Assembly (NCBI RefSeq): GCF_030646165.1
Contig: NZ_JAUTDO010000006.1
Location: 372,001 to 436,000, forward strand
Length of the DNA: 64,000 nucleotides
From: Conexibacter sp. CPCC 206217
GTDB lineage: Bacteria; Actinomycetota; Thermoleophilia; Solirubrobacterales; Solirubrobacteraceae
Direction of reading: 5' to 3'
A program made the position numbers and the translations under genes. The notes below the pieces were generated by a model. That model did no database searches and had not been told where the DNA came from. It worked only from the letters and a program-made list of their open reading frames with translations. Positions 2,490-27,178 of this stretch are shown piece by piece (positions within the stretch are counted from its first letter, which is position 1; every line of letters starts with the position of its first letter).

Positions 2490-5194
<2,705 letters not shown>

Positions 5195-5276
5195 GCCGCC
5201 ACCTCCCGTGTCTGCTGGGACGCGCGAGCGAGCCCTTGGGCGAGTTCGCGCCCGGCATGCGAGCGCTCTGCGCGAG

Positions 5277-7072: not shown

Positions 7073-7094
7073 GGGTATCTCCCTCTCGGCGCGG

Positions 7095-8551: not shown

Positions 8552-8584
8552 CGGGGATCTCCTCTCACTCGTGACGCGGGGACG

Positions 8585-9619: not shown

Positions 9620-9632
9620 GACGCCTGCCTGC

Positions 9633-11282
9633 CTACGCCGTCGCCGGGGCCGGTCTGCCGGCGGGGCCGCCGGCCTTGTACGCCGCGACGTGCGCCTCGC
9701 GCTCCTCCGGCGTCATCTCGTTCAGCAGCACGTTCGGGCTCTGCAGCGTGTTGCCGCGCAGGTCCGACAGTCTCCACATCTTCTTCGGGTCGAGGTCGAG
9801 GTGCGGCTGCGGGACCAGCGTCTCGCCGTCGTCGCGCACGTAGCCGAGGTCCTTCACGACCTCCGCGACGTCGACGCCGTGGTAGAGCGTCTCCCACTCG
9901 CGCTTGCCGGTCAGTCTGCCCATCGCCGGCGTCGGGCGGCCCTCGTACTCGGGCCGGAACGCGACGGCGTCGGTCCAGTGACAGGTCTCCGAGCAGTACG
10001 TGCGGACCTGACCGTCGACCTCGTCGACGACCATGTCCTCGCGGATCAGGCACGGCACCATGCACGACCAGCAGCGGTGCGGGTACTGGTAGTCGACGTC
10101 CTCGAACGCGATCGGGTTGTGGCCGTTCTTTCTCGACAGGTCGGCGTAGTTCTCCCACCACTTGCCGTATCTGTCGTACCAGCCCGGGTACTTGTGCTCG
10201 AACCACTCGAAGTCTCTGTCGTCCATCGCGTCGATGCGCCAGTAGTTGAACGGCCAGCCGGTCGCGAAGAACTGCGCGACCTCGTGGACGTAGCCTCTGT
10301 TCCAGATGCGGTCCCACGACGCCTCGACGAGGTCGTGCGGGATCTCGAGGCCGTACTTCTCCAGCGGCACGAGGTAGGAGCGGTAGTAGTCGTCGTAGAT
10401 CCAGCGGCGCCACGACTCGGCGTAGCTGTCGCGCTCCAGGCGGCGGTCCTTCGTGCCGTACTCGATGAAGGTGCCGATCGCGGCGTCGACGACGGCGTGG
10501 TTGTTCCACCAGGCGTAGCGCAGGTCGCGCTCCAGCAGGGCGCGGTTGCGCTCGTCGGCGAGCGCCATCAGGATGATCGAGTAGCCGTTGGAGATGTGGC
10601 GCGACTCGTCGGACTGGACCGAGTGGAAGACGGTCGGCAGCAGGTAGTCGCCGTTGGCGGCGGCCTCGCCCGGCATCGCGACGAAGAGGACGTTGGTGAA
10701 GGCCGTCTCGGCGACGATCGTCAAGTAGATGTTGGCGGCGGTGATCGCGTCACCGGTGATGAAGCCCTCGCCGAACTGGCGGCCGATCGTGCCCGCGTAG
10801 CAGTTGGAGAACGCCTTCTCGGAGATGTCGAACCCGGCGGGGTCGATGTAGTGGTTCATGTAGAGGCGCTTGAGGTTCATCTGGATCGTCGAGTGACGAA
10901 CCTCGTCGATCATCTGGATCGCCAGCCCGTTGTGGACCTCGGGGTTGGGGACCGCGTTGATCGCCAGCGGCATCGCCCGCGCCGCGGAGATCTCCGGAAA
11001 CGGGATGATCGACAGGAACAGCTTCTGCCACTCCATCCAGCGCTGCTGCACCTGGCGGAACATGTTGCCGCGGATGGCGCCGTCCATCGCGCCGAAGACG
11101 CGGTTGTCCTTCTCCTCCTCCATCGGGAAGTAGGAGCGCAGGACCTGCTTCAGCGGGTCCTTCTTCGGCGCCTTCTCGAACGTGTAGTCGGTCGGGTACT
11201 TGTCGACCGGCTCGACGAACGTCGGATCCCAGGAGAGCTCCTGGATCTTCTGGTGGGCCTTCGTGATGCTCGCCCGACTCAT
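9633..11282 (-). CDS. prmA: propane monooxygenase hydroxylase large (alpha) subunit
   Basis: 549 aa catalytic subunit. The six diiron ligands are visible: Glu97 (PFPEISAAR), Glu127 and His130 (DEVRH), Glu192 (VAETAFTN), Glu226 and His229 (DESRH). A C-terminal zinc-binding-like CWSCMVPC...YCSETCHW region is also typical. Length and ligand spacing fit PrmA/MimA, which hydroxylate propane, acetone or phenol; the real substrate is unknown. A perfect AGAAGGAGGT ribosome site precedes the ATG. It is the first gene of the operon and follows iclR by 62 bases. Confidence 0.93.
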
Positions 11283-13842: not shown

Positions 13843-14165
13843 GTGACTCCGGCCGTCGCGGGACGACAGAGCGCAGCAGCGGTCACGTCCTGGCGAGACA
13901 GCGTCATCCGGGGATCCCTCTCCTCGCTCCTCGACCCCGCTGCGCCGCGCCTGAGCGGTCAGCGATGGTCGCTGAAACGACTCTAGCGCGTAACCCGCGT
14001 GTCGCGAAAGGGCTCGACGTCGGTCACTCCGTCGTCCGGTATGAGGCGAGCATGAGCCGCGCGGCGTGCGAGCGCCCGCGCTCGGCCGGCGTTCAGGCGT
14101 TGAACGCCGAAGGGGCCGTCCGGGCCCTTGGCCGGCGCTGCCGACCTCCGCAAGATGGAGGCTTC
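13843..14165. other. divergent intergenic region
   Basis: 323 bases between the minus-strand GAF regulator and the plus-strand secreted-protein gene. I see no convincing open frame. It contains the first copy of the composite palindrome element (14091-14131) described separately. Confidence 0.6.
14091..14131 (+). promoter_or_regulatory. composite palindrome element, copy 1
   Basis: GTTCAGGCGTTGAAC (14091-14105), embedded in a perfect 8-bp inverted repeat GGCGTTCA/TGAACGCC, is followed about 30 bases centre-to-centre by GGGCCCTTGG (14122-14131). Copies 2 and 3 lie before the pel-like operon and the deacetylase gene. It may be a regulator operator, an alternative-sigma promoter, or both. Confidence 0.55.
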
Positions 14166-15170
14166 GTGGTGCGACGAACGAGACCGGTCATGGCGCACGC
14201 GGCGGTCATGCTGCTGACGTGCGCGGCGGCGGGAGCAGCGATGCCGGTGGTCGCGGGGGCGGCCGATGCTCTGCCGCCTGCTGCCGCGAGGGCGGCCGAC
14301 GCTGTGCCGCCTGCTGCCGCGACGGCCGCCGAGTCACCGCCGTCGCTGCCCGGGCCGCCGCCCGGCGCCGGCGCCGGCTTTCCGCTGCCGCCGTCGGCGG
14401 GCGCCGTCCCGCTCGCTCCGGCGCCCGGTGCATCGACCGCGATCCCCGCGCCCGCGGGCCCGGCACTTGTGGACGGCGGTGCGCAGGTCACCGCCGCCGG
14501 CCGGCTCACGCTGCGTGTCGCGTGCGGCGCGAGCGGACGGGCGAGCCTGAGCGTCGCCGCGCTGCGCTCGGTGACGCTGGCGCGCGCGGCGTACGGCTGC
14601 CACGGCGGCCGCGCCGCGGTGCGGCTGCGGATCGACAGCGCCGACGCGAGACGGCTCGCGCCGATCAGTCCCGCGCTCGGGCGCGTGACGCTGCGCCAGG
14701 GCGCCACGACGGCGCGGTTGTCGGTCGCGCTCGCCGCAGCCGGCCGCTCGTGGTCGCCGGGGTTCTGGAGCGACGGCGGCCTGCAATGCGCCTCGCCAGG
14801 CCCGGCGCAGGCGTATCTGGTGGCGCCGAACTTCACGGTGACGCCGTCGACCTCGATCGCCGTGCGGCCATGGGTCGCCTCGTACACCGCCGACGGCGGC
14901 TGGCGCTGGCTCGGCCTGCGGGGGCGCGACGCCAGCCGCTGGCTGGAACTGATCGCGACCCCGGCCGGCGTCGCGCAATGGCTGCAGCCCGCCGGTGCGC
15001 TGAACCCGTGGACGTGGGGGCCGATCGACGTGCCCGGCGGCGCGCGGTCATATGCGCTGGGCGTCTTCGAGGTGATCTACTGGTACGGCGGCCGGCCGAC
15101 CTACGTGTGGCGTTACGCGCGTTCGTTCGTCGCGGCTCAGCCGACCGGCTCCTACTGCGTGTACGGCTGA
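14166..15170 (+). CDS. secreted protein of unknown function
   Basis: About 334 aa. The start is the GTG at 14166 (or the next codon) after GGAGG. A short basic segment and a hydrophobic stretch (AHAAVMLLTCAAAGAAMPVVAGA) form a signal peptide. Next comes a 90-residue Ala/Pro-rich linker, then a beta-rich region (AGRLTLRVACGASGRASLSV). The C-terminal 160 residues are rich in Trp and Tyr (FWSDGGLQCASPG, WTWGPIDVPGGARSYALGVFEVIYWYGG, ending in SYCVYG), which suggests a carbohydrate- or wall-binding fold. I do not recognise the family. It shares the upstream element with the exopolysaccharide genes, so it may belong to that system. Confidence 0.6.
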   Translation: MVRRTRPVMAHAAVMLLTCAAAGAAMPVVAGAADALPPAAARAADAVPPAAATAAESPPSLPGPPPGAGAGFPLPPSAGAVPLAPAPGASTAIPAPAGPALVDGGAQVTAAGRLTLRVACGASGRASLSVAALRSVTLARAAYGCHGGRAAVRLRIDSADARRLAPISPALGRVTLRQGATTARLSVALAAAGRSWSPGFWSDGGLQCASPGPAQAYLVAPNFTVTPSTSIAVRPWVASYTADGGWRWLGLRGRDASRWLELIATPAGVAQWLQPAGALNPWTWGPIDVPGGARSYALGVFEVIYWYGGRPTYVWRYARSFVAAQPTGSYCVYG

Positions 15171-15243
15171 GCGGCGGGCGCCTCGAGCGGGCCGCGCGAT
15201 GCCGGGTGGGCGGCGGTCGGACGTGCCGCGTGGGCCGCGGCCG

Positions 15244-15888
15244 TCAGACGAGCTCCTCGCGGACCGCGTGCACCGCCGCCTGGATGCGGTTGGCGACGTG
15301 CAGCTTGGTGAGGATGCTCGAGATGTGGTTCTTGACCGTGTGCGGGCTGATGAACAGCTGCGCGGCGATCGCCGCGTTGTCCTTGCCGTCGGCGACCAGG
15401 CGCAGGACGTCGTGCTCGCGCGGCGACAGCGGGTCGTCGTCGTGCGGGGGGTGCGGCCGGCCGTTGCTGCGGATCCGCCCGAGCACGGTGGCCGCCACGC
15501 GCGGGGAGAGCATCGCCTCGCCCGCCGCGACCGCGCGCACGCCGGCGACGATCGTCTCGATCGCGGCGTCCTTCAGCAGATAGCCGCGGCTGCCGGCGAG
15601 CAATGCGTCGGTCAGGTCGTCCTCCGCCGCCGAGACGGTCAGCACGAGCGCCGCGGTCGCCGGCGCGCAGGCGGCGATCTGGCGGATCGTCTCTATCCCC
15701 GTGCCATCCGGCAGGTCGAGGTCGACGACCGCGACGTCGGGCGCGTAGCGCTGCACCAGCCTCACGCCGCCGGCGACCGTCGGCGCGTCGCCCGCGACGG
15801 CGATGTCGTGCGCCGTCAGCAGCTCGCGCAGCCCGGCGCGGAAGATCGTGTGGTCGTCGACCAACACGACGGTGATCGCGTCAGTCAT
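15244..15888 (-). CDS. NarL/FixJ-family response regulator
   Basis: 214 aa. The receiver has an intact acidic pair (LVDDH), phospho-acceptor Asp (VVDLDLPDG) and Lys (LLKDAA). The C-terminal LuxR-type helix-turn-helix is LSPREHDVLRLVADGKDNAAIAAQLFISPHTVKNHISSILTKL. The start is the ATG at 15888, because a longer frame adds only non-homologous residues. It is third in the kinase-regulator-regulator set, divergent from the pel-like operon, and a natural candidate to bind the nearby palindrome elements, since LuxR-type domains bind inverted repeats. Confidence 0.9.
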   Translation of the reverse strand: MTDAITVVLVDDHTIFRAGLRELLTAHDIAVAGDAPTVAGGVRLVQRYAPDVAVVDLDLPDGTGIETIRQIAACAPATAALVLTVSAAEDDLTDALLAGSRGYLLKDAAIETIVAGVRAVAAGEAMLSPRVAATVLGRIRSNGRPHPPHDDDPLSPREHDVLRLVADGKDNAAIAAQLFISPHTVKNHISSILTKLHVANRIQAAVHAVREELV

Positions 15889-15942
15889 CGGTTGTCGCCA
15901 CCGCCTCGCGGGTCGCTCGCAGCGGTCGTCACGGCGCACGCC

Positions 15943-16593
15943 TCACGTCGCCATCGCATGGCTTGTCAGCCGCAGCGCCGCGTCGCGATCGCTGGCGCCG
16001 AGGCGGCGGACGCTGGTCGAGAGGTGGCGGCGGACCGTCACCGGCGAGACGCCGAGCTGCTGCGCGATCTGCTTCGTCGAGAGGCCGCGGCGCAGCAGCT
16101 CCAGCGATGCGGACTCGCGCGGCGACAGCGTCACGACGGCGCCGTCGGAGAGCCGCACGCGCCGCGCGCCGCCGCGCGTCTGCAGTTCCTCGACGACGCG
16201 CGCCACGAGCGTCCGCGACAGCGGCGCCTCGCCGCGCGCGGCGCCGCGGACGGCGCGCGCGAGCGGAGCCGGGGCGATGTCCTTCAGCAGGTAGCCGACC
16301 GCGCCGGCGCGCAACGCCGCCAGCAGCTCGTCGTCGGAGTGTCTGGCCGCGAGCAGCACGATCCGCGCGCGCGGGCAGCGGGCCGAGATCTCGGCGACGG
16401 TCGAGATCGCGCCGCCCGGCAGGCCGGCGTCGAGCAGGCAGACGTCGATCGCGTGGTGCTGCGCGGCGACGGTCGCGCCGCGCGCGTCGACGGCCTCGGC
16501 GACGACCGCGAGGCCGTCGTGCTCGAGCGCGATCCGCAGCCCCAGCCGCGTGACCGGCTGACCGTCCGCCAGCAGCACGCGCGGCTGGTCCAT
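15943..16593 (-). CDS. NarL-family response regulator with altered receiver
   Basis: 216 aa. The receiver domain has the phospho-acceptor Asp (VCLLDAGLPGG) and Lys (YLLKDIAP), but the usual Asp-Asp metal pair reads LLADGQP, so one acidic residue is Gly. The LuxR-type helix-turn-helix is LSPRESASLELLRRGLSTKQIAQQLGVSPVTVRRHL. The ATG overlaps the kinase stop (TGATG), so kinase and regulator are probably translationally coupled. The weakened pocket suggests reduced or phosphorylation-independent activity, which is inference. Confidence 0.87.
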   Translation of the reverse strand: MDQPRVLLADGQPVTRLGLRIALEHDGLAVVAEAVDARGATVAAQHHAIDVCLLDAGLPGGAISTVAEISARCPRARIVLLAARHSDDELLAALRAGAVGYLLKDIAPAPLARAVRGAARGEAPLSRTLVARVVEELQTRGGARRVRLSDGAVVTLSPRESASLELLRRGLSTKQIAQQLGVSPVTVRRHLSTSVRRLGASDRDAALRLTSHAMAT

Positions 16594-17372
16594 CAGGGCA
16601 GCACCACCGCGACTTCGGTGCCCTCGCCAGGCCGCGCGCTGACGCGGAAGCTGCCGCCGAGCAGCTCGGCGCGCTCGCGCATCGAGACGAGTCCCCAGCC
16701 GCGCGGGGCGGGAGCGCCGACCGGCGGCGCGAACCCGCGTCCGTCGTCGGCGACGCTCAACGACAGCCCGCCGGCGCACGTGCGCAGGCAGACGCGGACG
16801 CGCTCGGCGGTGCCGTGCTCGACGGCGTTGGCGAGCGCCTGGCCGAGGATCCGCAGGACGGCGGTTCGCCGCGCGCGGTCGCTCGCGGCGGCGCCGGCCA
16901 GCTCCAGCCGCAGCTCGACCGCGACGCCGAAGCGCGCCGTGAACGACGCGACCGCCTGCTCCACCAGCGTCCCGAGCGGCACGTCGGACGGCGCGCGCAG
17001 CGTGTCGATCGTCAGCCGCGCCTCGATCAGCGCCCGTCGCGACGCCGCCCGCAGCTCCCGCACGAGGTCGGGATCGGGCGCCGCGCCGTCGAGGCGCTGC
17101 AGCTGCGCGGCGATGAACGCCAGCTCCTGCGCGAGGCCGTCGTGCACGTCGCGCGCGATCGCGCGCCGCTGCTCGGCCAGCGCGGCGGACCGCCGCTCGC
17201 GCTCCCGTCGTGCGGTCTTCGCCGCGCCGCGTTCGCGCCGTGCGGTCTTCGCCACCGCGTCCTGTGGTCGCGGTCTTGGCTTCGCGCGCCTGACCTGGGC
17301 CCGTCGGCCGTCCTGGAAGCGATCCTTCGGAGAGCATCGTGCCCGACCGGCGAGCACTCTTCGTGCCATCAC
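16593..17372 (-). CDS. sensor-less HisKA_3 histidine kinase
   Basis: 259 aa. The dimerisation/phosphotransfer helix has the NarX-type H-box IARDVHDGLAQELAFI, and the ATPase domain has NAVEHG, DDGRGF and GWGLVSMRERAELLGG. There is no transmembrane or recognised sensor domain. The first 65 residues are a basic low-complexity stretch with a 10-residue repeat (AKTARRERG-like), encoded by a degenerate 30-bp tandem repeat near 17195-17255. The GTG at 17372 is followed directly by ATG. It is presumably cytoplasmic and coupled to the two response regulators downstream. The input signal is unknown. Confidence 0.8.
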   Translation of the reverse strand: MMARRVLAGRARCSPKDRFQDGRRAQVRRAKPRPRPQDAVAKTARRERGAAKTARRERERRSAALAEQRRAIARDVHDGLAQELAFIAAQLQRLDGAAPDPDLVRELRAASRRALIEARLTIDTLRAPSDVPLGTLVEQAVASFTARFGVAVELRLELAGAAASDRARRTAVLRILGQALANAVEHGTAERVRVCLRTCAGGLSLSVADDGRGFAPPVGAPAPRGWGLVSMRERAELLGGSFRVSARPGEGTEVAVVLP

Positions 17373-17540
17373 TCGCGGTCTCCTTCAACCTCTGCCATGA
17401 GGAATTTCGGACGACCGTACCGCATCGACGGTCCCGAAACCGGTGGGAGGGGCGATCGAAACGCGATCCATACCTTTCGGGTGAAGATGGCGCGTGCGAA
17501 CTCGCCGGATCGGGCGCTTCGCGCGACGTGCGGACGCGTC

Positions 17541-17583
17541 GTTCAGCGCTTGAACACCAGATGGGACAGGCGGCCCATTGGGG
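17541..17583 (+). promoter_or_regulatory. composite palindrome element, copy 2
   Basis: GTTCAGCGCTTGAAC (17541-17555), then 18 bases, then CCCATT within GGCGGCCCATTGGGG (17569-17583). It sits between the divergent kinase gene and the coiled-coil/PelF-like operon. The 13-base block GCGGCCCATTGGG is identical in copy 3. Confidence 0.6.
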
Positions 17584-17662
17584 TTTCTCCGAGGACCCTC
17601 GACACTGGTTCCCGTTCGATGACGGACTTCATCGAGGTCGTCCCCCGGAGGTGACGGGCACC

Positions 17663-18076
17663 ATGCAGGCCAGGACGGTAGATGCGAGCAGGGGCGCAAC
17701 CCCGGACGACGCTCGCACACCCGCCCCGGGTCGCGTCGGTCGCCGCGCGAAGGCCGGCGGCTGGCTGCGCGGGGCGACCGCGGGCGCCGACGAGCGCGAT
17801 GGCGCCTCGCACGTCGAGCAGCTGGAGGCGGAGCTGGCGCTGCTGCGCGAGGAGAACGCGCGGCTGAAGATCCGCGCCGCACGCGAACCGGAGCGGCCGT
17901 GGGACGAACGCGTGCGCGACCGCGTCGTCCCGCGCGCGACCCATTCCGACGGCCCGGGCGACGACGTCTGGGAGCTGGTGACCGAGTGCCGGCTGCTGCG
18001 CACTGCGCTCGTCGATGCGTGCCGCGACCTCGAGGTGGCACTGCAAAGGGTCGACGGGTGCCTCCCAGCATCTTGA
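17663..18076 (+). CDS. small coiled-coil protein upstream of pelF-like gene
   Basis: 137 aa, unrecognised. The first 45 residues are polar. A coiled coil (HVEQLEAELALLREENARLKIRA, about 55-77) follows, and a second helical, possibly coiled, part (WELVTECRLLRTALVDACRDLEVALQRV) ends the protein. The start is the ATG at 17663, eight bases after GGAGGTGA. It overlaps the glycosyltransferase gene by 19 bases, so the two are cotranscribed. No signal peptide or membrane helix is present. It may act as an adaptor for the synthase complex, but this is a guess from position. Confidence 0.65.
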   Translation: MQARTVDASRGATPDDARTPAPGRVGRRAKAGGWLRGATAGADERDGASHVEQLEAELALLREENARLKIRAAREPERPWDERVRDRVVPRATHSDGPGDDVWELVTECRLLRTALVDACRDLEVALQRVDGCLPAS

Positions 18077-19557
18077 TGACGACCGAAGGCACCTACCCGT
18101 TCGCCGTGGGCGGGGTCAGTTCCTGGTGCCATGTCGTGGTCGGCGGCCTGCCCGAGTTCACGTGGCGGATCCTTCCCATCCACGCGGGCGGCCGCCGGCC
18201 CGTCCAGCTCTACGAGCTGGCACCGAACGCCGCGCTGGCCGGCCGGATCGACGTCTGGTCCGAGCAATTGCCGCGGCGGCGCCGGACGTCCGGGCTGCGC
18301 CGCGAGGTGCGGCCCGGGCTGCCGGGCGACCTCGCACGCGCGCTGATCGGCTGGCGCGGCGACCAGCGCGCGCTCGTCGAGGGGCTCGTCTGGGCGCGCG
18401 CCCATCCCGACGCGCTGCGCCCGACGTTCCGCTCGATCGAGGCCTGGGAGCAGTTCGTCGCCGAGCTGCAGCTGGTCGTCGCCGAGCGCCATCCGGACGC
18501 CGCGCCGGCGCCCGAGCTCGACGCCGTCGACGCGGCGATGCTGTACCAGCGGCTGTACTGGATCGCCCGCACCGCGGCCGTCGCGACGCCGCCCTGCGAC
18601 GTGCTGCACGTGACCGCGGCCGGCTGGGCCGCGCTGCCGGCGCTCGTCGACCGGCACCTGCGCGGGACGCCGCTGCTGCTGACCGAGCACGGCGTCTACG
18701 TGCGCGAGGCGTATCTGGCCGCCGCACGCGCAGACGCCTCCGCCGGCGAGCGCTTCCTCGCGACGCGGCTGGCGCGCGGGCTCAGCCTCGCCGCGTACGC
18801 CGCCGCCGACGTGATCGCCCCGGTGACCGAGGCGAACGCGGCGTGGGAGGTCGGTCTCGGGGTCGACCCGGCGAAGATCTGCGTGATCCACAACGGGATC
18901 CCCGCGCCGCTCGGCTCGATCGCGCCGCCCGGCGGGTTGAAGGTCGTCTCGATCGGCCGCATCGACCCGCTCAAGGACGTCCAGACGATGCTGCACGTTG
19001 CGGTCGAGGTGTGCGAGCGGGTCCCGCAGGCGCGGTTCGAATACTGGGGCCCGGCGACGCGTGGCCAGGAGGCCTATGCGCGCGCCTGCGAGCAGCTGCG
19101 CCAACAGCTCGGCCTCGGCGACCGCTTCCGCTTCATGGGGTCGACGCAGACGCCCGACGAGGTCCTGCGCGACGCCGACGTGGTGCTGCTGACGAGCATC
19201 TCCGAGGGGATGCCGATGGCGATCCTGGAGGCGATGGCGCAGGGGCGCGCGGTCGTCGCGACCGGTGTCGGCGGCGTCCCGGACGTGCTGCGCGGCTGCG
19301 GTGTCGTCGTCCCCTCCGGCGACGTCGACGGTCTCGCCAGCGGCGTCACGACGCTGCTGCGCGACCCGCAGTTCGCGGCTCAGCTCGGCCAGCGCGCGTT
19401 CGACCGCGTCTGCGAGCGCTATACGCAGTCGCTCTGCCTGGCGCGCTACCGCGAGCTGCTGGGTCAGCTGAGCGCCGCGCCGCGCGCCGAGCAGTCGCCG
19501 GCCTCCGCGCGTGAGCCGGTCGAGGAGCTGCGCGCGGCGCTCTGCGAGGTCGCCTGA
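18058..19557 (+). CDS. pelF: PelF-like GT4 glycosyltransferase
   Basis: 499 aa, close to the 507 aa of Pseudomonas PelF. The N-terminus PSILMTTEGTYPFAVGGVSSWCHVVVGGLPEFTW has the PelF hallmark EGTYP..GGVSSW. The C-terminal GT-B domain has GRIDPLKDV and the E-x7-E region SEGMPMAILEAMAQGRAVVATGVGGVPD. PelF uses UDP-GalNAc to build the Pel polysaccharide in the cytoplasm. The GTG at 18058 keeps the first beta-strand intact; the ATG at 18076 would remove part of it. The gene is followed without gap by the membrane-protein gene. Symbol by homology; the product sugar is not proven here. Confidence 0.85.
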   Translation: MPPSILMTTEGTYPFAVGGVSSWCHVVVGGLPEFTWRILPIHAGGRRPVQLYELAPNAALAGRIDVWSEQLPRRRRTSGLRREVRPGLPGDLARALIGWRGDQRALVEGLVWARAHPDALRPTFRSIEAWEQFVAELQLVVAERHPDAAPAPELDAVDAAMLYQRLYWIARTAAVATPPCDVLHVTAAGWAALPALVDRHLRGTPLLLTEHGVYVREAYLAAARADASAGERFLATRLARGLSLAAYAAADVIAPVTEANAAWEVGLGVDPAKICVIHNGIPAPLGSIAPPGGLKVVSIGRIDPLKDVQTMLHVAVEVCERVPQARFEYWGPATRGQEAYARACEQLRQQLGLGDRFRFMGSTQTPDEVLRDADVVLLTSISEGMPMAILEAMAQGRAVVATGVGGVPDVLRGCGVVVPSGDVDGLASGVTTLLRDPQFAAQLGQRAFDRVCERYTQSLCLARYRELLGQLSAAPRAEQSPASAREPVEELRAALCEVA

Positions 19558-20874
19558 ATGAGCGTCGGCGACGTGGGCGCGGACGGGGCCGGCGCGGTCA
19601 TCCACGCACGCCTGGGACGGCCGCCGCAGGACGTGCTGGAGGCCGCGGTCGTGTTGGAGGCGTGGGGCGGCATGACGGCCGAGTCCGCGCTGCGGATCGG
19701 GCCGCGCGTGCTGCTGCCGGCGCTGCGCTGCACCGATCCGCGCCGGTGGCAGCCGGTCGACCGCGAAGGCCGCAGGGCCGTCGTCGCCGAGGGCGTCGCG
19801 CTGCTGGCGGCGATCCTCGCGATCGCGGTCTGGGCCGGGCCGCTGAGCGCCGCGCTCGGCGACACCACGTTCGAGCGCGCGCTGCGGCTGGCATTGCCGA
19901 TCACGCTGGCGCTGCAGTGGACGATCCGCAGCCGCTACCTCAGCCGCCGCGCCGGCCTCGCCTGCCTGGCGGAGAACCGCGTCGGCCTCACGCTCGCGCT
20001 CGTCGCGCTGGCGGCCTGCGTCGCGGCCGTGCCCGACGGCGGCCCGATCGCCGCGATGCTCGTCGCGATCTGGGGCGGCGGGACGGTCCTGACGCGGCGC
20101 GGCTGGGGACTGCTCTACGGCGGGCTGCTGGCCGTCGAGGCGCTGTGGCTCGTGCTCGGGCTGCCGGCGCTGGCGTCGCTCGTCGTGCTGACGGTCGTGA
20201 CGCTGGCGACGGTCGTGTACGCGGTCGTGAGCGCGCACGAGACGGCGGTCATGCCGCCGGGACGGCTGACGCGGGCGCTGGCCGCCGGCGTCATCGGCGG
20301 GCTGCTCGGCTGCCTGCTGGTCGGCGACCCGAGCCTCGGCTGGGGAATCCACGGGACCTTCCCGGCGCTGACGCTGGTGCCGTCGGTCGTCGGCAGCTTC
20401 TGGGGCGGCTACCACCTGTGGCAGTTCCACGAGGAGATCCCGCGCGGGCTGCGCGGCGTCGAGCTGTCGCGCGCGAGCGCCTCGATGGTGCGCGGGCCGG
20501 CGACGGAGATCGTCCTGCAGGCGCTGGTGCGGCTGATCGGGATCACCGTCGCGCTGTCGCTGGTGGTGCTGCTGATCTCGCGCTGGACCTCCGGCACCGA
20601 CGCGCCGAGCCTGTTCGTCGCGTTCGGTCTCGCCGCGCTCGTCTGCATGTTCGTCAGCCTGCTGGAGTCGCTCGGCTACGACCGCTGGGCGCTGCTGTGC
20701 GCCGGCGCGAGCGTGGCGGTCGAGCTGCTCGTCAGCCACTGGCTCGGCGCGCCGGTCGCGGGCGCCGGGCTGATCGCGGGAGGGACGGTCGGCACGCTGC
20801 TCGCGCTCGCGCCGCTCGTCGGCCTGCTGCGCTTTCCGGGGCGGGTGCTGGCGACGGCGCTGTGGATTCAGTGA
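19558..20874 (+). CDS. 12-TM membrane protein, probable PelG-like exporter
   Basis: 438 aa (Pseudomonas PelG is 456 aa). After about 80 soluble residues there are roughly twelve hydrophobic segments, including VALLAAILAIAVWAG, LASLVVLTVVTLATVVYAVV and IGITVALSLVVLLI. Conspicuous motifs are LVPSVVGSFWGGYHLWQFHEEIPRGL and SLLESLGYDRWALL. PelG-type proteins are thought to move the Pel chain across the inner membrane. Size, topology and direct linkage to the PelF-like gene (stop immediately followed by ATG) support the same job. Primary-sequence recognition is only moderate, so another flippase family is possible. Confidence 0.65.
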   Translation: MSVGDVGADGAGAVIHARLGRPPQDVLEAAVVLEAWGGMTAESALRIGPRVLLPALRCTDPRRWQPVDREGRRAVVAEGVALLAAILAIAVWAGPLSAALGDTTFERALRLALPITLALQWTIRSRYLSRRAGLACLAENRVGLTLALVALAACVAAVPDGGPIAAMLVAIWGGGTVLTRRGWGLLYGGLLAVEALWLVLGLPALASLVVLTVVTLATVVYAVVSAHETAVMPPGRLTRALAAGVIGGLLGCLLVGDPSLGWGIHGTFPALTLVPSVVGSFWGGYHLWQFHEEIPRGLRGVELSRASASMVRGPATEIVLQALVRLIGITVALSLVVLLISRWTSGTDAPSLFVAFGLAALVCMFVSLLESLGYDRWALLCAGASVAVELLVSHWLGAPVAGAGLIAGGTVGTLLALAPLVGLLRFPGRVLATALWIQ

Positions 20875-20886
20875 CGCCGCGCCCGC

Positions 20887-21693
20887 TCAGCAGGCGTCGC
20901 GCCACGCGCCGAGCCCCATCCGCTTGCGGATCGCGCTGATCCCGAGTCGCTTCGCCGGCTCGCAGAAGCGCTCGCGCGGCAGCGCGTACTCGGCGTCGAA
21001 GACCGCCTTGCCGGCGCGCAGGAACGGCCGTGCGCGCCCGCACTCGCGGTACTGGAAGCACTGCTCCAGGACGGCGAAGTCGAAGCTCGGCTGCAGCGCC
21101 CGCGCCTGTTCGAGATCGTTCTTGAGCGCGACCGCGAGCCCGTGCGCGTGCGCGGTCTGCGCGAGCCAGCGGTTGAAGCGCAGCTGGTCGCGCGCGGTCA
21201 GCGGGAAGCCGCTGTCGTTGGCGTAGCCGTCGACGTTGTCGGGCTCGACCGCGTCGAAGCCCTTGCGCGCGCACATCGCGATGCGGTCGCGCAGGACCGG
21301 CGCCAGCGCGCGCAGGCGACGCACGTCGAGCCAGCGCTCGCCGGGCCAGCCGTTGTCGGCTCCGAGCGTCGCGGCGGGGAAGCGGTCGCGGTCGGGCCGC
21401 CAGTTCTCCCACGCCCCGGCGCTGAAGTAGCAGACGACGTAGCGCCCGTCGCGGTGCAGCCGCGCGACCGCGGCGGCGCTCGTGTCGAACCCGTCGACGT
21501 CGTAGACGCGCGCGGGGACAGAGGCGTCGAGGCGGCCGTCGAGCTGCCACTGCCAGGAGGCGTGGGGCGGCGGGCGCTGGATGCGCGCGGCGACGTCGGC
21601 GACCGGCTGCGGGGCAGCGGGCGCGGCCGGCTGCGTGCGCGGCGGGATCAAGATCGCCGCGACCACCGCCAGCGCCAGCGGCAGAATCGTCAC
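20887..21693 (-). CDS. secreted GH114-family endo-alpha-1,4-polygalactosaminidase
   Basis: 268 aa. The N-terminus TILPLALAVVAAILIPP is a signal peptide or membrane anchor, followed by a Pro/Ala linker and a complete GH114 domain: WQWQLDG, YDVDGFD, CYFSAGAWENWRPD, GFDAVEPDNVDGY (Asp152 region) and FAVLEQCFQY (Glu210). GH114 enzymes such as fungal Ega3 cut alpha-1,4-linked (acetyl)galactosamine. The GTG start overlaps the stop of the other GH114 gene (GTGA). It is convergent with the PelG-like gene. It probably trims or releases the exopolysaccharide. Confidence 0.85.
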   Translation of the reverse strand: MTILPLALAVVAAILIPPRTQPAAPAAPQPVADVAARIQRPPPHASWQWQLDGRLDASVPARVYDVDGFDTSAAAVARLHRDGRYVVCYFSAGAWENWRPDRDRFPAATLGADNGWPGERWLDVRRLRALAPVLRDRIAMCARKGFDAVEPDNVDGYANDSGFPLTARDQLRFNRWLAQTAHAHGLAVALKNDLEQARALQPSFDFAVLEQCFQYRECGRARPFLRAGKAVFDAEYALPRERFCEPAKRLGISAIRKRMGLGAWRDAC

Positions 21694-22502
21694 ACGACGC
21701 TCCGGGCCGGTTCGGCGAGGTGGGGAGGACGGTCCAGTTCCAGCACGCTCACCGCCGGGTGGAAGCCTTCCTGCAGCGAGCGCCGGACAGCGTCGGCGGC
21801 GCCCGCGGAGCCGGGCTCGGCGTAGTCGAGCGTGAAGACCGGGAGGCCGCGCGCGTGCAGCCGGCGCAGGCCGCGCAGCAGCTGCTCCGTCTCCGCCGGC
21901 GGCGAGCGGCGATAACCGTCCTCCCAGCGCCAGAAGACGTCCTCGTGGGCGACCGCGTCGATCGGCAGCCGCTCGTCGACCGCGAGCCCGTTCTGCGCGA
22001 CGAGCAGCAGTTCCGGCGCGGCCTCGCGCAGGCCGCGGACCAGCGCGACGAGCGCGTCGGCGAGCGGCGGATGGTCCTCGGCGACGTCGAGGTTGTCGAG
22101 GTAGAGGCCGTCGAAGCCGCGCGCGCTCAGCGTGATCGCCTGCTCGGTCATCAGCTCGCGCCAGCCGCGCTCGCGCACGTCCGCGTAGCGCTCGCCGGGC
22201 CAGTCGTCGACCGCGCCGATCGTCCACGCGTCCGGGACCTGGCTCGCATACGGCCGCCACGCCTCGACGGTCCCGAGCGACAGATATCCCAGCACCAGCG
22301 CGTGCCGCTGCAGCGGCGGCAGCAGCTTCGCGACGCGGAGCTGGTCGCGAGCCGACTCGCCGACGCCGTCGAGCACGATCAGCTCGTAGCCGGACAGGTC
22401 GCAGCGGGCCGGGTCGCAGCCGAACGCCGGCGCCCAGCGGTGGGCGGTTCGCAGCGCGACGCGACGGCGCGCGAGCGCTGCCAGTCGGTCCTTCGTGCTC
22501 AT
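21690..22502 (-). CDS. GH114-like protein without signal peptide
   Basis: 270 aa. The endo-alpha-1,4-polygalactosaminidase-like TIM barrel has LGYLSLGTVEAWRPYASQ, DDWPGERYADVR, GFDGLYLDNLDVAED (Asp136) and AHEDVFWRW (Glu187). The best start is the ATG at 22502, seven bases after GAGGAG, and no secretion signal follows it. It may act in the cytoplasm on an intermediate, have become a binding protein, or leave by another route. It is first in a two-gene minus-strand operon and divergent from the deacetylase gene. Confidence 0.78.
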   Translation of the reverse strand: MSTKDRLAALARRRVALRTAHRWAPAFGCDPARCDLSGYELIVLDGVGESARDQLRVAKLLPPLQRHALVLGYLSLGTVEAWRPYASQVPDAWTIGAVDDWPGERYADVRERGWRELMTEQAITLSARGFDGLYLDNLDVAEDHPPLADALVALVRGLREAAPELLLVAQNGLAVDERLPIDAVAHEDVFWRWEDGYRRSPPAETEQLLRGLRRLHARGLPVFTLDYAEPGSAGAADAVRRSLQEGFHPAVSVLELDRPPHLAEPARSVV

Positions 22503-22551
22503 CGCAGACTCCTCGGCGGAGAGAAGTGTCACCGTAACACAGAGAAGGGGC

Positions 22552-22594
22552 GTTCAATCAATTGAACGCTCAATGCGCCGCGCGGCCCATTGGG
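22552..22594 (+). promoter_or_regulatory. composite palindrome element, copy 3
   Basis: GTTCAATCAATTGAAC (22552-22567), extended to a 9-bp perfect inverted repeat GCGTTCAAT/ATTGAACGC with a 2-base centre, then 18 bases to CCCATT in GCGGCCCATTGGG (22582-22594). The two-base centre is too short for an RNA loop, which favours a DNA-protein site. It lies between the divergent GH114 operon and the deacetylase gene, and could serve both. Confidence 0.6.
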
Positions 22595-22652
22595 CGGCGC
22601 GACCCGATCGTTGAGACTCCATTCGGTTCCCCATCGAAGGAGCGCAGGGACC

Positions 22653-25346
22653 ATGCGGAGGATGATGCTCGCCCTCGCGATGACCGTCATGACGATCACC
22701 GGCACGCTCTCACTCACGGCACCCGCGAGCGCGGAACCCGCGCAGCGCATCCAGCTGAAGGTGCTGCTGCTGGGCGCGACCGGCAGCGAGCCCTCCTTCG
22801 AGGCATGGCAGGCGCAGTTGCGGCGTGAGGGCGTCCCGTTCGACGCGCTGATCGCCAGACCCGGCCACGCGCCGATCACCGCCGCGACGCTGTCGACGAC
22901 GCTGCCGGACGGCACGCTCGTCGCAAAGTACGAGGCGGTCGTCGTCGCGACCGGGGGACTGCTGACCTGCGAGGCGACGCCGTGCGCGTCGGCGCTGTCG
23001 GCCGCGGAGTGGGCCGCGCTGCAGACGTTCGAGCGGACCTTCCACATCCGCCAGCTGACCGCCTACGCCTTCCCCGGCGCCGACTTCGGCCTCGATCCGC
23101 CGGCCGCGTCGGGGCCGCTCGACGGCACCGTCGCGAACCTCACCAGCGCCGGCCTGCAGGCGTTCCCGTACCTCAGAGGGCCGGTCACGATCGCCACCGG
23201 CACGTACGGCTACCAGGCCGCGCCGGCCATGGGGGCGAACTTCCAGACGTTGCTCGCCGGTCCCGGCGGCTCCGCGCTCGTCGGCGTCGTGACGCACGCG
23301 GACGGACGCGAGGAGATGGTCCAGACGTTCGACGGCAACCAGTACCAGCTGCACTCGTGGCTGCTGCGTCACGGGCAGCTGGAGTGGGTCACCCGCGGCA
23401 CCTATCTCGGCCTCCAGCGCAACTACCTCGAACTGCAGGTCGACGACATCTTCCTGCCCGACGACGCATGGGATCCCGTTAGACACGTGACCAACTACGA
23501 CCCGGCCGCCGCAATCCGCATGACGCCGGCCGACGTGACGTTCCTGTCGAACTGGTCGAGCACGACCGGCATCCGCCTGGACATGGTCTACAACGGCGGC
23601 GGCAGCGTCGCCGAGCAGCTGGCCAACGGCAGCGACCCGCTGCTGCCCGCCTTCCAGGCCGTCAAGTCGCAGTTCGAATGGATCAACCACACCTACGACC
23701 ATCCGAACCTCGACTGCTCGACGAGATCGTTCATCGCGAGACAGATCGCTGACAACGTCGCCTGGGCGCAGGCCAACGGCTTCGCCGTCGACGGCGGCGA
23801 GCTGGTGACCGGCGAGCACTCCGGCCTCGCGAACCTCGTGCCCGGCAACCCCGGCACGATCGACCCGCCCGGGATCGACGACGCCGACCCGGCGGCGACC
23901 GGCGGCACGCTCCCGGCCGGCAGCTACGACTACAGCGTCACCGCGACGACCGCCAACGGCGAGAGCATCGGCTCGATCGCGACCGCGGCGACGACCGGCG
24001 CGACCGGCTCGGTGACGGTCAGCTGGGAGGCGATCTGCCACGCGTCCACGTACAAGGTCTACCGCCGCGTCTCGCCGGCCGGCGCGTGGGCGCTGATCGG
24101 CGCGGTCGCGCAGCCGGCGACGGCGTTCACCGACAGCGGACCGGTCGGGCTGTCGTTCAGAGACACCGGCGCGGCCGGCAGCGCCGCCGCGCCGCCGGCC
24201 TCCAACGGCGCGCGCATCAACCCGTACGCGCAGAACCCGAACTTCGCCGGCGCGCTCTCCGACGCGGGCGTCCGGGCGGTCGCCACCGACGCTTCCAAGC
24301 CCTACCCGCAGAATCCGGCGAGCACGGGCGGCGCGCAGTGGCCGGCGGGCGCGTCGTTCCTCGACGGCCCGGCGCGCACGGTCCCGCGCTACCCGACCAA
24401 CGTCTACTACAACGTCGCGACCCAGGCGCAGTTGCTGGACGAGTTCAACTACCTCTACAACCCGCCGGCGCTCGGCGGCATCTGCGTCGACACGGCGACG
24501 ACGACCTGCCAGACGCAGCCGTCGACATGGGCGGACGTGGTCGCGGGCGAGTCGCAGCGGATCTTCGGCCACGTGATGGGCAACGACCCGCGGCCGCACT
24601 ACTTCCACCAGACCAACATCGCGCAGACGCAGGCGGCCGGCGGCGGGGTCCTCTTCCCGATCCTCGACGCCGTGCTCGCCGACTACACCGCCGCGTTCGC
24701 CCCCAACGCCCCGATCGTCCAGCTCGGCCACGCCGAGATCGCGGACCTGATCGGGCGCCAGGACGCGTGGGCGGCCGCCGGCGCGGGGCCCGTCAGCGGC
24801 TACGTCCAGGGCGCGCAGGTGACGATCGTCAACGCCGGCGCGTCGGGCGTCGCGCTGCCGCTGAGCGGGACCGAGGTGGGCGAGCTGTACGGCGGCACGC
24901 GCTCCGGCTGGGGCGTCGCGCCGCCCGGCACCAGCACGCACGTCGCGACGACGCCGTGGCCGGGCGCCCCCGTGACCCCGCCCGTGACGCCGCCGGTCAC
25001 ACCGCCCGTGACACCGCCCGTCACCCCGCCGACGACGCCGCCGCAGACCAGACCGGTCGACCACATCGACGATCCGCCGGTCGGCCCCGGGCCGGTGCTG
25101 ACGCCGCCCGTGACGGCGCCGCAGAGAGCGGGCGCCACGCCGCCGGCGAGCAGAAGAGCCGCTGCGAGAAGAAGAGCGAAGAGAGCGAAGAAGTGCGTCA
25201 AGGTGAAGCGCCGCAAGACGGTCCGCGGCCCGCACGGGACCAAGCGCCGCGTCGTCGCGGTCGTGCGCAAGGTCTGCCGCCCGCGCGCGCACAGACCGCT
25301 TGGCGGGAGACGGCCGGCGGCGAGACACCGGCGGGGGCGCTCCTAA
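22653..25346 (+). CDS. secreted Agd3/CE18-like polysaccharide deacetylase
   Basis: 897 aa. Signal peptide 1-28. Residues 35-250 form an N-terminal module. The catalytic region shows LQVDDIFLPDD (Asp264-Asp265), the metal-binding HxxxH in WINHTYDHPNL (His346, His350), TGEHSGL (386-392) and YFHQTN (651-655), as in the GalNAc-polymer deacetylase Agd3 and the PelA deacetylase. A fibronectin III-like segment (about 403-500) interrupts it. The C-terminus is a VTPP-repeat linker and a very basic tail with two Cys. It probably deacetylates the exopolysaccharide outside the cell, and the cationic tail may bind the wall. It overlaps the convergent sulfatase gene by four bases. Confidence 0.8.
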   Translation: MRRMMLALAMTVMTITGTLSLTAPASAEPAQRIQLKVLLLGATGSEPSFEAWQAQLRREGVPFDALIARPGHAPITAATLSTTLPDGTLVAKYEAVVVATGGLLTCEATPCASALSAAEWAALQTFERTFHIRQLTAYAFPGADFGLDPPAASGPLDGTVANLTSAGLQAFPYLRGPVTIATGTYGYQAAPAMGANFQTLLAGPGGSALVGVVTHADGREEMVQTFDGNQYQLHSWLLRHGQLEWVTRGTYLGLQRNYLELQVDDIFLPDDAWDPVRHVTNYDPAAAIRMTPADVTFLSNWSSTTGIRLDMVYNGGGSVAEQLANGSDPLLPAFQAVKSQFEWINHTYDHPNLDCSTRSFIARQIADNVAWAQANGFAVDGGELVTGEHSGLANLVPGNPGTIDPPGIDDADPAATGGTLPAGSYDYSVTATTANGESIGSIATAATTGATGSVTVSWEAICHASTYKVYRRVSPAGAWALIGAVAQPATAFTDSGPVGLSFRDTGAAGSAAAPPASNGARINPYAQNPNFAGALSDAGVRAVATDASKPYPQNPASTGGAQWPAGASFLDGPARTVPRYPTNVYYNVATQAQLLDEFNYLYNPPALGGICVDTATTTCQTQPSTWADVVAGESQRIFGHVMGNDPRPHYFHQTNIAQTQAAGGGVLFPILDAVLADYTAAFAPNAPIVQLGHAEIADLIGRQDAWAAAGAGPVSGYVQGAQVTIVNAGASGVALPLSGTEVGELYGGTRSGWGVAPPGTSTHVATTPWPGAPVTPPVTPPVTPPVTPPVTPPTTPPQTRPVDHIDDPPVGPGPVLTPPVTAPQRAGATPPASRRAAARRRAKRAKKCVKVKRRKTVRGPHGTKRRVVAVVRKVCRPRAHRPLGGRRPAARHRRGRS
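24972..25043 (+). repeat. 12-bp in-frame repeat coding VTPP linker
   Basis: Six tandem 12-base units encode VTPP five times and then TTPP. They form a proline/threonine linker between the deacetylase body and the basic C-terminal tail, typical of cell-wall-spanning linkers. Confidence 0.85.
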
Positions 25347-27178
25347 CGGGTCACGAGCGGGAAGTCCGGCGTGAATGCGTCGAGCAGCGACATCAGCTCG
25401 CCGAGCGCCTCGGGGCGGCCGTCGATCGCGATCTCGGTCGGCGGGTCGACGCCCGCGACGCCGGCCGCGACCAGCAGGAGCGCGACGAACGCGGCGTGCG
25501 TCAGCGTCACGGTCACGTCCGCGTCGGGATCGAGCCGGCCGCGCACGTGCGTCAGCGCGCCGTTGCGCATCCGCAGCACGTAGCGCTCGTCGCGGTCGGT
25601 GAAGTGCCAGTTGACGGTGAGTCGTCTGTCCGCCGCGCGCGGCCCGTCGAGCCGCACGCCGAGGAAGTCGAACACCATCGTCACGGGCATCTGCGCGACG
25701 AAGCTCGCCGGCACCAGCGGCGCGGCCGGTCGGACGCCGTGGCGCAGCTCGTGCGCGCCGCTGAGGTAGAAGTCGCGCCACGGCGCGGACTCGGCCTGAA
25801 AGCCGAGCCGTTCCAGCACGTCGGCCTGCAGTTCGCGCGCCTCGGCGTTGTCGGGCTCGGCGAAGACGACGTCGTTGACGACCTGGGCGACCCAGCGCAG
25901 CTCACCCGCCGCGAGGTCTTCGCGGGCGCGCGCGAGGACGGCCGCGGCGCCGCCCATGTACGCCACCGTGCGCTTGGCCCGCTCCACCTGCGGCAGCGGG
26001 TGCAGGTGCGCCGGGTTGCCGTCGAACCAGCCGAGGTAGCGCTGATAGACCCCCTTCACGTTGTGGCTGACGGTGCCGTAGAAGCCGGCGGTGAACGCCT
26101 CCGTGCGCAGCGCCGGCGGCAGCTGCACCAGCTCCGCGCACTCGTCCATCGTGTGGCCGCGGTTGGCGAGCCGCAGCGTCTCGTCGTGCAGGTAGCGGTA
26201 GAGGTCGCGCTGGAGCGAAAGGAAGTGCTCGACCTCGTTCGCGCCCCAGCGCGGCCAGTGGTGGCCGGCGAAGACGACGTCGGTCGCGCCGCCGAAGCGC
26301 TCCAGCGCCGTGTCGATCGCCCCACTCCAGGCGAGCGCGTCGCGCACCTGCGCGCCGCGCAGCGTGTAGAGGTTGTGCAGCGTGCAGGTGCAGTTCTCCG
26401 CGATGCAGAGCGCGCGCAGCTGGGGGAGGTGGAAGTGCAGCTCGGCCGGTGCCTCGCTGTCGGGCGCGAGCTGGAAGACGAAGCGCAGGCCGTCGATCGT
26501 CAGCTCCGCGCCGTCCTGCGTCACCAGCTCGTTCGGCGCGACGAGGCCGGGCAGGCCGTGCGGGATGCCCTTGCCGAGGCCGGCGTCGACGTGGCCGCGC
26601 GGGCCGCGCGGCAGCAGCGAGCCGTACATGTAGTCGGCGCGCCGCGCCATCGCGTTGCCGGCCAGCACGTTCTCGCTGATCGCGGCCTCGAGGAAGCCGT
26701 CGGGAGCGATCACGCGCACGCGGCCGGCGGCGGCGTCCTCGGCGGACACGACGCCCGGCGCGCCGCCGAAGTGGTCGACGTGCGAGTGCGTGTAGATCAC
26801 CGCGACGACGGGCCGCGCGCCGAGCGTGGCGTCGGCGAGCGCGAGCGCCGCGCGCGCGGTCTCCGGCACCGTCAGCGGGTCGACGACGATCCAGCCCGTG
26901 TCGCCCGCGATCAGCGTCATGTTCGCGAGGTCGTAGCCGCGCACCTGGTGGATCCGCTCGGCGACCTCGAACAGCCCGTGCAGCTGGTTGCGCTGCGCCT
27001 GGCGCCAGAGGCCGGGGTGGACGGTGGCAGGCGGCGTGTCGCCGTCGAGGAACGCGTAGTCGTCGGCGTCCCACACGGCGGTCCCGTCGTCCGCCCGGAT
27101 CGCCAGCTCCGGCTCGCTCGCGACGAGCCCTCTGCGGGCGAGCGCGAACTCGTCGGTCCCCTCGTCACCCTCGCTCAT
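25343..27178 (-). CDS. alkylsulfatase-type metallo-beta-lactamase hydrolase
   Basis: 611 aa. The metallo-beta-lactamase core has the zinc motif THSHVDHFGG (His131, His133, Asp135, His136), AENCTCTLHNLY and AGHHWPRWG. A dimerisation region follows, and an SCP2-like C-terminal domain (about 490-605) binds hydrophobic tails. This is the layout of SdsA1/BDS1 alkylsulfatases, which cleave alkyl sulfate esters. Unlike SdsA1 it has no signal peptide, so it probably acts in the cytoplasm. Its 3' end overlaps the deacetylase gene tail-to-tail. Confidence 0.83.
   Translation of the reverse strand: MSEGDEGTDEFALARRGLVASEPELAIRADDGTAVWDADDYAFLDGDTPPATVHPGLWRQAQRNQLHGLFEVAERIHQVRGYDLANMTLIAGDTGWIVVDPLTVPETARAALALADATLGARPVVAVIYTHSHVDHFGGAPGVVSAEDAAAGRVRVIAPDGFLEAAISENVLAGNAMARRADYMYGSLLPRGPRGHVDAGLGKGIPHGLPGLVAPNELVTQDGAELTIDGLRFVFQLAPDSEAPAELHFHLPQLRALCIAENCTCTLHNLYTLRGAQVRDALAWSGAIDTALERFGGATDVVFAGHHWPRWGANEVEHFLSLQRDLYRYLHDETLRLANRGHTMDECAELVQLPPALRTEAFTAGFYGTVSHNVKGVYQRYLGWFDGNPAHLHPLPQVERAKRTVAYMGGAAAVLARAREDLAAGELRWVAQVVNDVVFAEPDNAEARELQADVLERLGFQAESAPWRDFYLSGAHELRHGVRPAAPLVPASFVAQMPVTMVFDFLGVRLDGPRAADRRLTVNWHFTDRDERYVLRMRNGALTHVRGRLDPDADVTVTLTHAAFVALLLVAAGVAGVDPPTEIAIDGRPEALGELMSLLDAFTPDFPLVTR

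Follow-up and report, generated by a model that had tools for sequence, protein, structure and literature searches.

Bacteria and moulds build biofilms with cationic polymers such as Pel and galactosaminogalactan (GAG), whose synthases polymerise and export the chain by means that are not yet settled. The fungal GAG cluster consists of uge3, sph3, gtb3, ega3 and agd3. Of its products, Gtb3 has been termed a putative transmembrane glycosyltransferase (PMC4817252), and the Gram-positive Pel operon has been given as pelDEADAFG (Whitfield et al. 2020, PMC7112168). Bacterial agd3 operons encode a CE18 deacetylase, a cytoplasmic glycosyltransferase (GT), a multi-spanning membrane protein and at least one GH114 hydrolase, with Spherulin-4 in some Actinobacteria (Bamford et al. 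2020, PMC7229062); going by the sections of that paper drawn on here, the kind of locus described below is already published in outline.

We analysed a 64,000-nucleotide window from the soil actinobacterium Conexibacter sp. CPCC 206217 and found genes whose products probably synthesise a sticky cationic sugar polymer like that of moulds such as Aspergillus, export it, remove its acetyl groups and trim it. We consider it likely that this is a bacterial GAG-type exopolysaccharide locus, operating by the mechanism proposed below. Ten proteins encoded between 14091 and 27178 were scanned against Pfam and NCBIfam models, and the following features were delineated:

14190–15170, +, secreted protein of a family without a model (homology in relatives)
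15244–15888, -, NarL-type response regulator (PF00072 + PF00196)
15943–16593, -, second NarL-type response regulator (PF00072 + PF00196)
16593–17372, -, histidine kinase with HisKA_3 and HATPase domains (Pfam; start uncertain)
17663–18076, +, small coiled-coil-like protein (by eye; homologues in relatives)
18076–19557, +, PelF-family GT4 glycosyltransferase of the CE18-linked group, proposed polymerase (PF11997, NF038011, tree)
19558–20874, +, 12-helix MOP/MATE-fold membrane protein of 438 aa with an N-terminal helical region, proposed exporter (AlphaFold2, profiles)
20887–21693, -, GH114, Ega3-like endo-alpha-1,4-galactosaminidase (PF03537, 6oj1)
21690–22502, -, GH191/GH166-like galactosaminidase homologue (PF03537, 9ep5)
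22653–25346, +, secreted Agd3-type CE18 de-N-acetylase with CBM87 (PF25115, PF25116, 6nwz)
22758–23387, +, CBM87 domain of the deacetylase (PF25116)
23838–24215, +, insertion of ~125 aa inside the CE18 domain, approximate (alignments)
24963–25343, +, proline-rich linker and very basic tail of the deacetylase (composition)

The small gene at 17663–18076, the kinase and two response regulators (15244–17372, - strand) and the 14190–15170 family were missing from the list of the first-pass annotation of this DNA. The secreted protein at 14190–15170 matched no Pfam or NCBIfam model at E 0.01, has a homologue in 7 of 15 related loci and yields a beta-rich predicted model of low confidence (pLDDT 58.6). 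Beyond HisKA_3 and HATPase, the Pfam scan found no further domain in the kinase.

The first-pass claim of an Agd3/PelA-type deacetylase with Asp-Asp, HxxxH and HQTN motifs was borne out. The 918-aa open reading frame ending at 25346, with a likely start at 22653, matches PF25115 (Agd3_CE, 47 bits in two separate stretches) and PF25116 (CBM87_Agd3, 36 bits), both above the cut-off, and aligns with the Agd3 structure 6nwz (E 4e-11). By these profiles and this alignment the protein is predicted to have the CE18 fold; a 22.6–25.3 kb product lacking a CE18/NodB-like fold, one of three outcomes that the first-pass annotation named as refuting it, was not what we observed. Across 18 aligned deacetylases, the window protein included, D261, D262, H343, H347, R576, H649 and N652 are invariant and Q650 nearly so. 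The 6nwz alignment shows motifs CM1–CM3, although its stretches over CM2 and CM3 score low; CM4 was assigned from the HQTN-like motif, not from the Agd3 alignment. The ~125-aa insertion is missing from Agd3 in the 6nwz alignment and from 4 of the 18 sequences; the tail, about the last 80 residues, contains 30 K/R and no D/E.

Two adjacent genes had been described as encoding GH114 proteins. Both products match PF03537 above the cut-off and possess the catalytic Asp and Glu, but only that of 20887–21693, which has an N-terminal hydrophobic signal or anchor, is closely Ega3-like (E 5e-50 against 6oj1). The second, from a gene whose end overlaps the start of the GH114 gene, is closer to 9ep5 (E 1e-17) than to PelA/GH166 (6e-12) or Ega3 (2e-7). 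We take 9ep5, one structure of the GH191 paper, to be Env-GH191, by elimination. A cytoplasmic location for the GH191-like protein is likely and apparently new, and fits poorly with a simple surface-trimming scheme, which we count against our main reading. Set beside the GH191 family as presented in the excerpted text of PMC12054363, the protein has 9ep5 as its nearest solved structure and differs in that no signal peptide was seen, by eye and by hydropathy, in any of the three genomes of the genus examined.

Related genomes allowed the linkage of these genes to be assessed. Within the order, PelF was present in 14/14 genomes with CE18 and in 3/218 other genomes. The first-pass annotation named unlinked genes in relatives as a refuting outcome; CE18, GT and exporter genes lie within ~3 kb in all 15 related loci, with GH114 also linked in 10 of them, and because CE18 and PelF occur together in every one, the linkage is more than chance. 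Of the 218 genomes of the order that lack CE18, 72 also have GH114, whose presence by itself therefore says little. In relatives the locus also has an Sph3-like GH135 (Spherulin4) gene and one of the epimerase family, and with these two the fungal GAG gene set is complete. PF12138 was matched in 7 of 17 genomes searched, the gene being linked in relatives, and Sph3 gave no PF12138 match in the Conexibacter genome itself. Because the epimerase profile covers short-chain dehydrogenases in general, an 'epimerase-like' match does not prove a UDP-sugar epimerase; no Uge3-type epimerase was found among the ten proteins scanned, and the genome carries galE at another site.

The GT, exporter and CE18 enzyme could conceivably make or modify another aminosugar polymer or a wall glycan, with the hydrolases consuming environmental GAG or Pel. 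Such a division of labour would suit both the abundance of GH114 in the order without a synthase and the long basic tail on CE18. It is at odds with the close linkage in all 15 loci, GH114 included in 10, and with the GAG set completed by GH135 and epimerase-family genes in relatives, and we consider it very unlikely.

More widely, a sample of 396 genomes from the phylum contained six with a PF25115 match, among them the Conexibacter genome analysed here, and one cassette of this kind, carried by a Kocuria plasmid, is flanked on both sides by transposase genes. A broader CE18 scan kept 80 loci, and in 18 of them the GT profile matched nothing in the DNA covered; several of these are short or contig-cut, but L066, L073, L084, L085, L087, L096 and L114 span ~22 kb, so CE18 does occur without a nearby PelF-family GT, as it does in a 22 kb plasmid region of Burkholderia stagnalis. 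These GT-less CE18 loci, the GH114 genes of genomes without CE18, the missing Sph3 and the layout of the window, in which the GH pair and CE18 gene are not collinear with the GT genes, were all counted against the GAG-type reading.

At the family level, the product of 18076–19557 is PelF-like, as had been claimed, scoring 113 bits with PF11997 (cut-off 23.3) and 157 bits with the PelF equivalog model NF038011 (cut-off 100). The latter match speaks for a divergent Gram-positive Pel system, with polymer and machinery as in pelDEADAFG, in which PelG, PelD and PelE would have diverged past recognition and CE18 would take the place of PelA. In line with this are two other actinobacterial genomes with real PelF and PelG plus CE18, a combination not present in the window, and a PelD search that gave no match in 19 genomes, its controls likewise staying silent. 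The GT phylogeny (84 rows, with 13 loci fetched twice excluded) points the other way: a 100/99 branch separates the PelG-linked PelF proteins from the window GT and other CE18-linked GTs; because the tree was midpoint-rooted for drawing, this branch marks a split and does not prove a clade. Eleven long branches were flagged, and joins of tandem GT copies were marked unsure. The tree group labelled Atype_CE18 includes two Gram-negative loci, L067 and L071, whose GT falls with canonical PelF and lies ~8 kb from CE18. The third refuting outcome named in the first-pass annotation, a GT that does not group with PelF, thus half applies, the protein belonging to the same family but to a separate group.

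The gene directly 3' of the GT had been read as encoding a 12-TM, PelG-sized protein. Its position stands, and the AlphaFold2 model shows 12 long helices after a ~60-residue N-terminal region in a MOP/MATE fold, that of PelG's superfamily, which is compatible with divergent Pel; the fold is also that of the lipid-linked flippases MurJ and WzxE, as a different aminosugar polymer or a wall glycan would allow. By sequence, the protein is not PelG: it matched no Pfam or NCBIfam model, PelG (PF16933) included, in none of the order's 14 genomes with CE18 did the membrane gene match PelG (E 0.01), and its family profile did not match a profile of eight PelG sequences (E 0.5). Identity with PelG was rejected on these grounds and only the superfamily fold retained. 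Within the wider exporter family a single member, L045, matches PelG below threshold (E 1.6e-4), which favours divergent Pel; the profile results, like the GT branch, go against it, and we regard it as unlikely. Neither hmmsearch nor the narrow profile A3 (E 0.11) showed homology between the Solirubrobacterales-type membrane protein (profile A5, 14 sequences) and that of Streptomyces-like loci, but the broader 17-sequence profile A7 connected the two (E 1.8e-8, 95%; E 1.2e-6 without three tandem-GT loci). Reversed profiles gave E 0.11 to 0.4, the lowest P in 30 block shuffles was 0.048, and the N-terminal motif alone was not significant (P 0.087). An exporter family common to CE18 loci of two phyla is apparently new, its gene being labelled 'hypothetical protein' in all five annotated plasmid records examined; the exporter role is proposed from the predicted fold and gene position.

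The small gene at 17663–18076, whose stop overlaps the GT start (ATGA), has a homologue, in varying positions, in 14 of 15 related loci, a count in which 9 are in the profile itself and 1 more is a near-copy. The profile was built from ten of the genes that it detects, the window gene included; independent finds are L028, L033, L035, L036 and L090. Homologues from two relatives had no Pfam match. This coiled-coil-like gene, kept in this locus subtype, is apparently new.

Given that the window GT groups with CE18-linked GTs, that the genes form a linked set and that relatives add GH135 and an epimerase-family gene, we favour a bacterial GAG-type locus over a Pel locus with fungal enzymes. The hybrid Pel/GAG framing of the first-pass annotation is poorly supported, the set behaving as one conserved locus; its suggestion that an alpha-1,4 GalNAc/GalN polymer is made, deacetylated and trimmed survives without that framing, an alpha-1,4-GalNAc-rich polymer, exported and deacetylated, being the best reading of the gene set. 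What the analysis itself establishes is the identity of the genes, the conservation of active sites, the linkage and a predicted fold for the exporter; for the substrate, transport direction, subunit roles, GH191 location and regulation, we infer the following scheme. The GT, on the assumption that PelF-family enzymes use UDP-GalNAc, would polymerise this sugar, perhaps with UDP-Gal, the supply coming from GalE encoded elsewhere. The MOP-fold protein would move the chain across the membrane, aided by the small cytoplasmic partner, which may stand in place of Pel's PelD/PelE. Outside, the CE18 enzyme, possibly held at the wall by its basic tail, would strip acetyl groups to leave a cationic, adhesive polymer, and GH114 would cut deacetylated stretches, trimming or releasing it. 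The GH191-like enzyme, which appears to stay in the cytoplasm, might clear stalled chains, and the kinase and two response regulators probably control transcription.

A broader proposal, possible but rather doubtful, is that CE18-linked PelF works with its own exporter family, a MOP branch distinct from PelG in Actinomycetota and Deinococcota, and that in Solirubrobacterales and near relatives the coiled-coil subunit replaces PelD/PelE, giving a three-part, c-di-GMP-independent, two-component-controlled GAG-like synthase; the fungal GAG cluster could then plausibly have come from cassettes of this kind. With its separate exporter family, such a system would offer another model of how synthesis, export and deacetylation are coupled, and its membrane and coiled-coil-like partners would be leads for tracing the bacterial origin of the fungal cluster.

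Compared with the Gram-positive Pel operon as outlined in PMC7112168, the window likewise has a PelF-family GT followed by a MOP-superfamily exporter, and both have an extracellular deacetylase with an Agd3-like three-domain build, going by the excerpted text of PMC13254593; it differs in its exporter, which is not PelG by sequence, in its CE18 deacetylase and in the separate grouping of its GT. With the fungal cluster the locus shares Agd3- and Ega3-type enzymes, and relatives add the Spherulin4/GH135 and epimerase-family genes, although the window has no local Sph3 or epimerase; its synthase, a GT with a separate MOP-fold protein, is set apart from Gtb3 by description only, in the terms of the PMC4817252 excerpt. 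With the agd3 operons as described in PMC7229062, the window shares CE18 with CBM87, a linked cytoplasmic GT, a multi-spanning membrane protein and a linked Ega3-type GH114. The text of section 13 of that paper assigns the membrane protein no family, and neither two-component genes nor a GH191-like enzyme nor a coiled-coil partner figures in it.

The genes that bear on the argument are these:

14190-15170, secreted protein
17663-18076, small gene, overlapping the start of the next by ATGA
18076-19557 (+), PelF-family glycosyltransferase (GT)
19558-20874 (+), membrane protein, proposed exporter
20887-21693, GH114 hydrolase
21690-22502 (-), GH191-like protein
22653-25346, CE18 (Agd3-type) deacetylase

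The first-pass annotation had proposed a PelF-like GT followed by a PelG-sized membrane protein. The GT is borne out by profile search, its product exceeding the cut-offs of both PF11997 and the PelF equivalog model. For the membrane protein, the position directly after the GT gene stands, but the product had no Pfam or NCBIfam match at E 0.01.

The survey of related genomes, suggested as a check on the shared gene set, upheld the linkage. Of 232 genomes of the order Solirubrobacterales, 14 have CE18 at E 0.001, 10 of these exceeding the family cut-off, and a PF11997 match occurs in 17 genomes, which include those 14; GH114 was commoner than CE18, occurring in 85 genomes, 13 of the 14 among them. 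We fetched 15 CE18 loci from 13 genomes other than that of the window (L037 and L038 are near-copies), and GT and membrane gene lay beside CE18 in all 15, with CE18 and GT frames at most about 3 kb apart; the membrane gene is cut by a contig end in L030, L034 and L042, the L034 match covering 35 residues only. GH114 is present in 10 of these loci, homologues of the secreted protein and of response regulators in 7 each, and a GH191-like gene in 2.

In a midpoint-rooted maximum-likelihood tree of 84 GT domains, with long branches flagged, a split supported at 100/99 separates 8 PelG-linked PelF, 2 GTs of Gram-negative CE18 loci and 3 small tandem copies from 68 CE18-locus GTs and 3 large tandem copies, and the 18 GTs paired with the window-type membrane protein form a single group (100/100). 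The tandem copies come from L043, L044 and L045 (genomes G111, G172 and G084), where a large membrane protein from the wider exporter family accompanies two PelF-family GTs, one shorter than the other; these genomes gave no CE18 match in the search of the order, and G111 carries two Spherulin4 genes. Separately, two actinobacterial loci (L133 and L134, genomes G272 and G242) encode canonical PelF and PelG (PF16933 at 470 and 459 bits); a CE18 frame comes next and a Spherulin4 gene lies close by, an arrangement that is a true Pel/GAG (galactosaminogalactan) combination.

The claim of an Agd3/PelA-type deacetylase was confirmed: the product carries CBM87 and Agd3_CE domains, aligns to Agd3 (6nwz), and keeps D261/D262, H343/H347, R576 and H649 (counted from 22662) invariant in all 18 aligned sequences, window included. 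These residues putatively correspond to Agd3 D377/D378, H510/H514, R613 and H668, the first three motifs through the 6nwz alignment, in which two later stretches score low, and the last by motif alone; their roles are taken from PMC7229062. An insertion of ~125 residues after the TGEHSG motif occurs in 14 of the 18 sequences and is absent from Agd3 by the 6nwz alignment. The CE18 protein of Conexibacter arvalis DSM 23288 reaches 73% identity over its best-matching segment. L033, L034 and L035 each contain a pair of CE18 genes, the longer with the inserted domain, the shorter lacking it. The gene of an alkyl sulfatase-type metallo-beta-lactamase protein at 25343-27178 (-) and the CE18 gene overlap at their ends.

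Of the two GH114 proteins initially proposed, the 20887-21693 product holds: it aligns to the fungal GH114 Ega3 (6oj1) at E 5e-50, keeps the Asp of PDN and the Glu of EQC, and has a strong hydrophobic stretch at its N-terminus. The 21690-22502 product, despite scoring above cut-off for PF03537, is nearest in structure matches to 9ep5, then PelA, then TM1410. GH191 dates from 2025, when a paper whose structures include 9ep5 and 9ep6 (PMC12054363) set it up as a family of endo-galactosaminidases separate from GH114, GH135 and GH166; by elimination, 9ep5 would be that paper's Env-GH191. By eye and hydropathy, no signal peptide was seen in this protein or its two same-genus relatives (3/3 genomes), and the protein, adjoining the synthase, is a putative cytoplasmic galactosaminidase. 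On plasmids of Deinococcus and Thermus, too, CE18 loci contain GH191-like proteins, with low scores of 42 to 60 bits.

The small gene is coiled-coil-like by eye, and two of its relatives matched no Pfam family. A profile built from 10 such genes, searched against frames of at least 50 aa in L028-L151 except four, matched 14 of the 15 order loci, the window and an Acidimicrobiia locus (L090), and, second fetches of matched loci aside, none of the others searched. Nine of the 14 are profile members and one a near-copy, so that L028, L033, L035, L036 and L090 are the independent matches; the sole order locus without it, L034, has a contig ending inside the membrane gene. From locus to locus the small gene stands before the GT, behind the membrane gene or ahead of CE18, and this shifting placement argues against its being an artefact of overlapping frames.

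Divergent from the synthase genes lie those of a histidine kinase and of two NarL-type regulators. Elsewhere in the 5.94 Mb genome, contig C12 encodes GalE (377 bits, cut-off 262); Sph3 (Spherulin4/GH135) was found neither in this genome nor in three more that were searched from the genus. PelD, matched in 0 of 19 genomes and in no control, may be present. Also in the window, at 2490-11282 (-), genes on one strand encode a Phenol_Hydrox protein, the large subunit of a di-iron monooxygenase type, together with an alcohol dehydrogenase, an amidohydrolase and a cpn60 chaperonin.

Pfam searches of the relatives L029 and L039 put a Spherulin4/GH135 gene directly after the membrane gene in both, and in L039 an epimerase/dehydratase-family gene lies further on. 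A wider CE18 scan of the genome_contigs collection gave at least 569 confirmed stretches, of which 80 named loci were kept, 13 of them order loci already fetched. Among the matches listed for the DNA of each fetched region, a GT of this profile occurs in 62 of the 80, GH114 and Spherulin4 in 40 each, an epimerase-like gene in 39 and all four together in 26; without those 13, the counts among the matches listed are 49, 34, 35, 35 and 22 of 67. A Kocuria rosea plasmid typed as mobilizable (L139) carries a five-gene cassette, CE18-PelF-membrane protein-Spherulin4-GH114, flanked by two transposase genes of the same protein accession, and similar sets lie on plasmids of Streptomyces californicus, two Deinococcus species and Thermus brockianus. 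On a Burkholderia stagnalis plasmid, CE18 has no neighbours of these kinds among 16 listed features. Two points slightly temper the probable reading as a GAG-type locus: the small-gene count leans on genes that went into its own profile, and CE18 also occurs where no GT does.

We drew on PMC7229062, PMC7112168, PMC7112194, PMC12054363, PMC4817252, PMC11356417 and PMC13254593. In the open-licence literature consulted beyond PMC7229062, whose figures and supplements may hold parts of one, we found no detailed account of such a bacterial CE18 locus. Of the 35 bacterial species in the tree of Bamford et al. 2020 (PMC7229062), 30 carry agd3 within or close to operons for carbohydrate-active enzymes, and every operon identified contains a GT together with a membrane protein of the multi-spanning kind. 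The gene sets of the relatives and plasmids agree with these operons, and this kind of locus is therefore already known.
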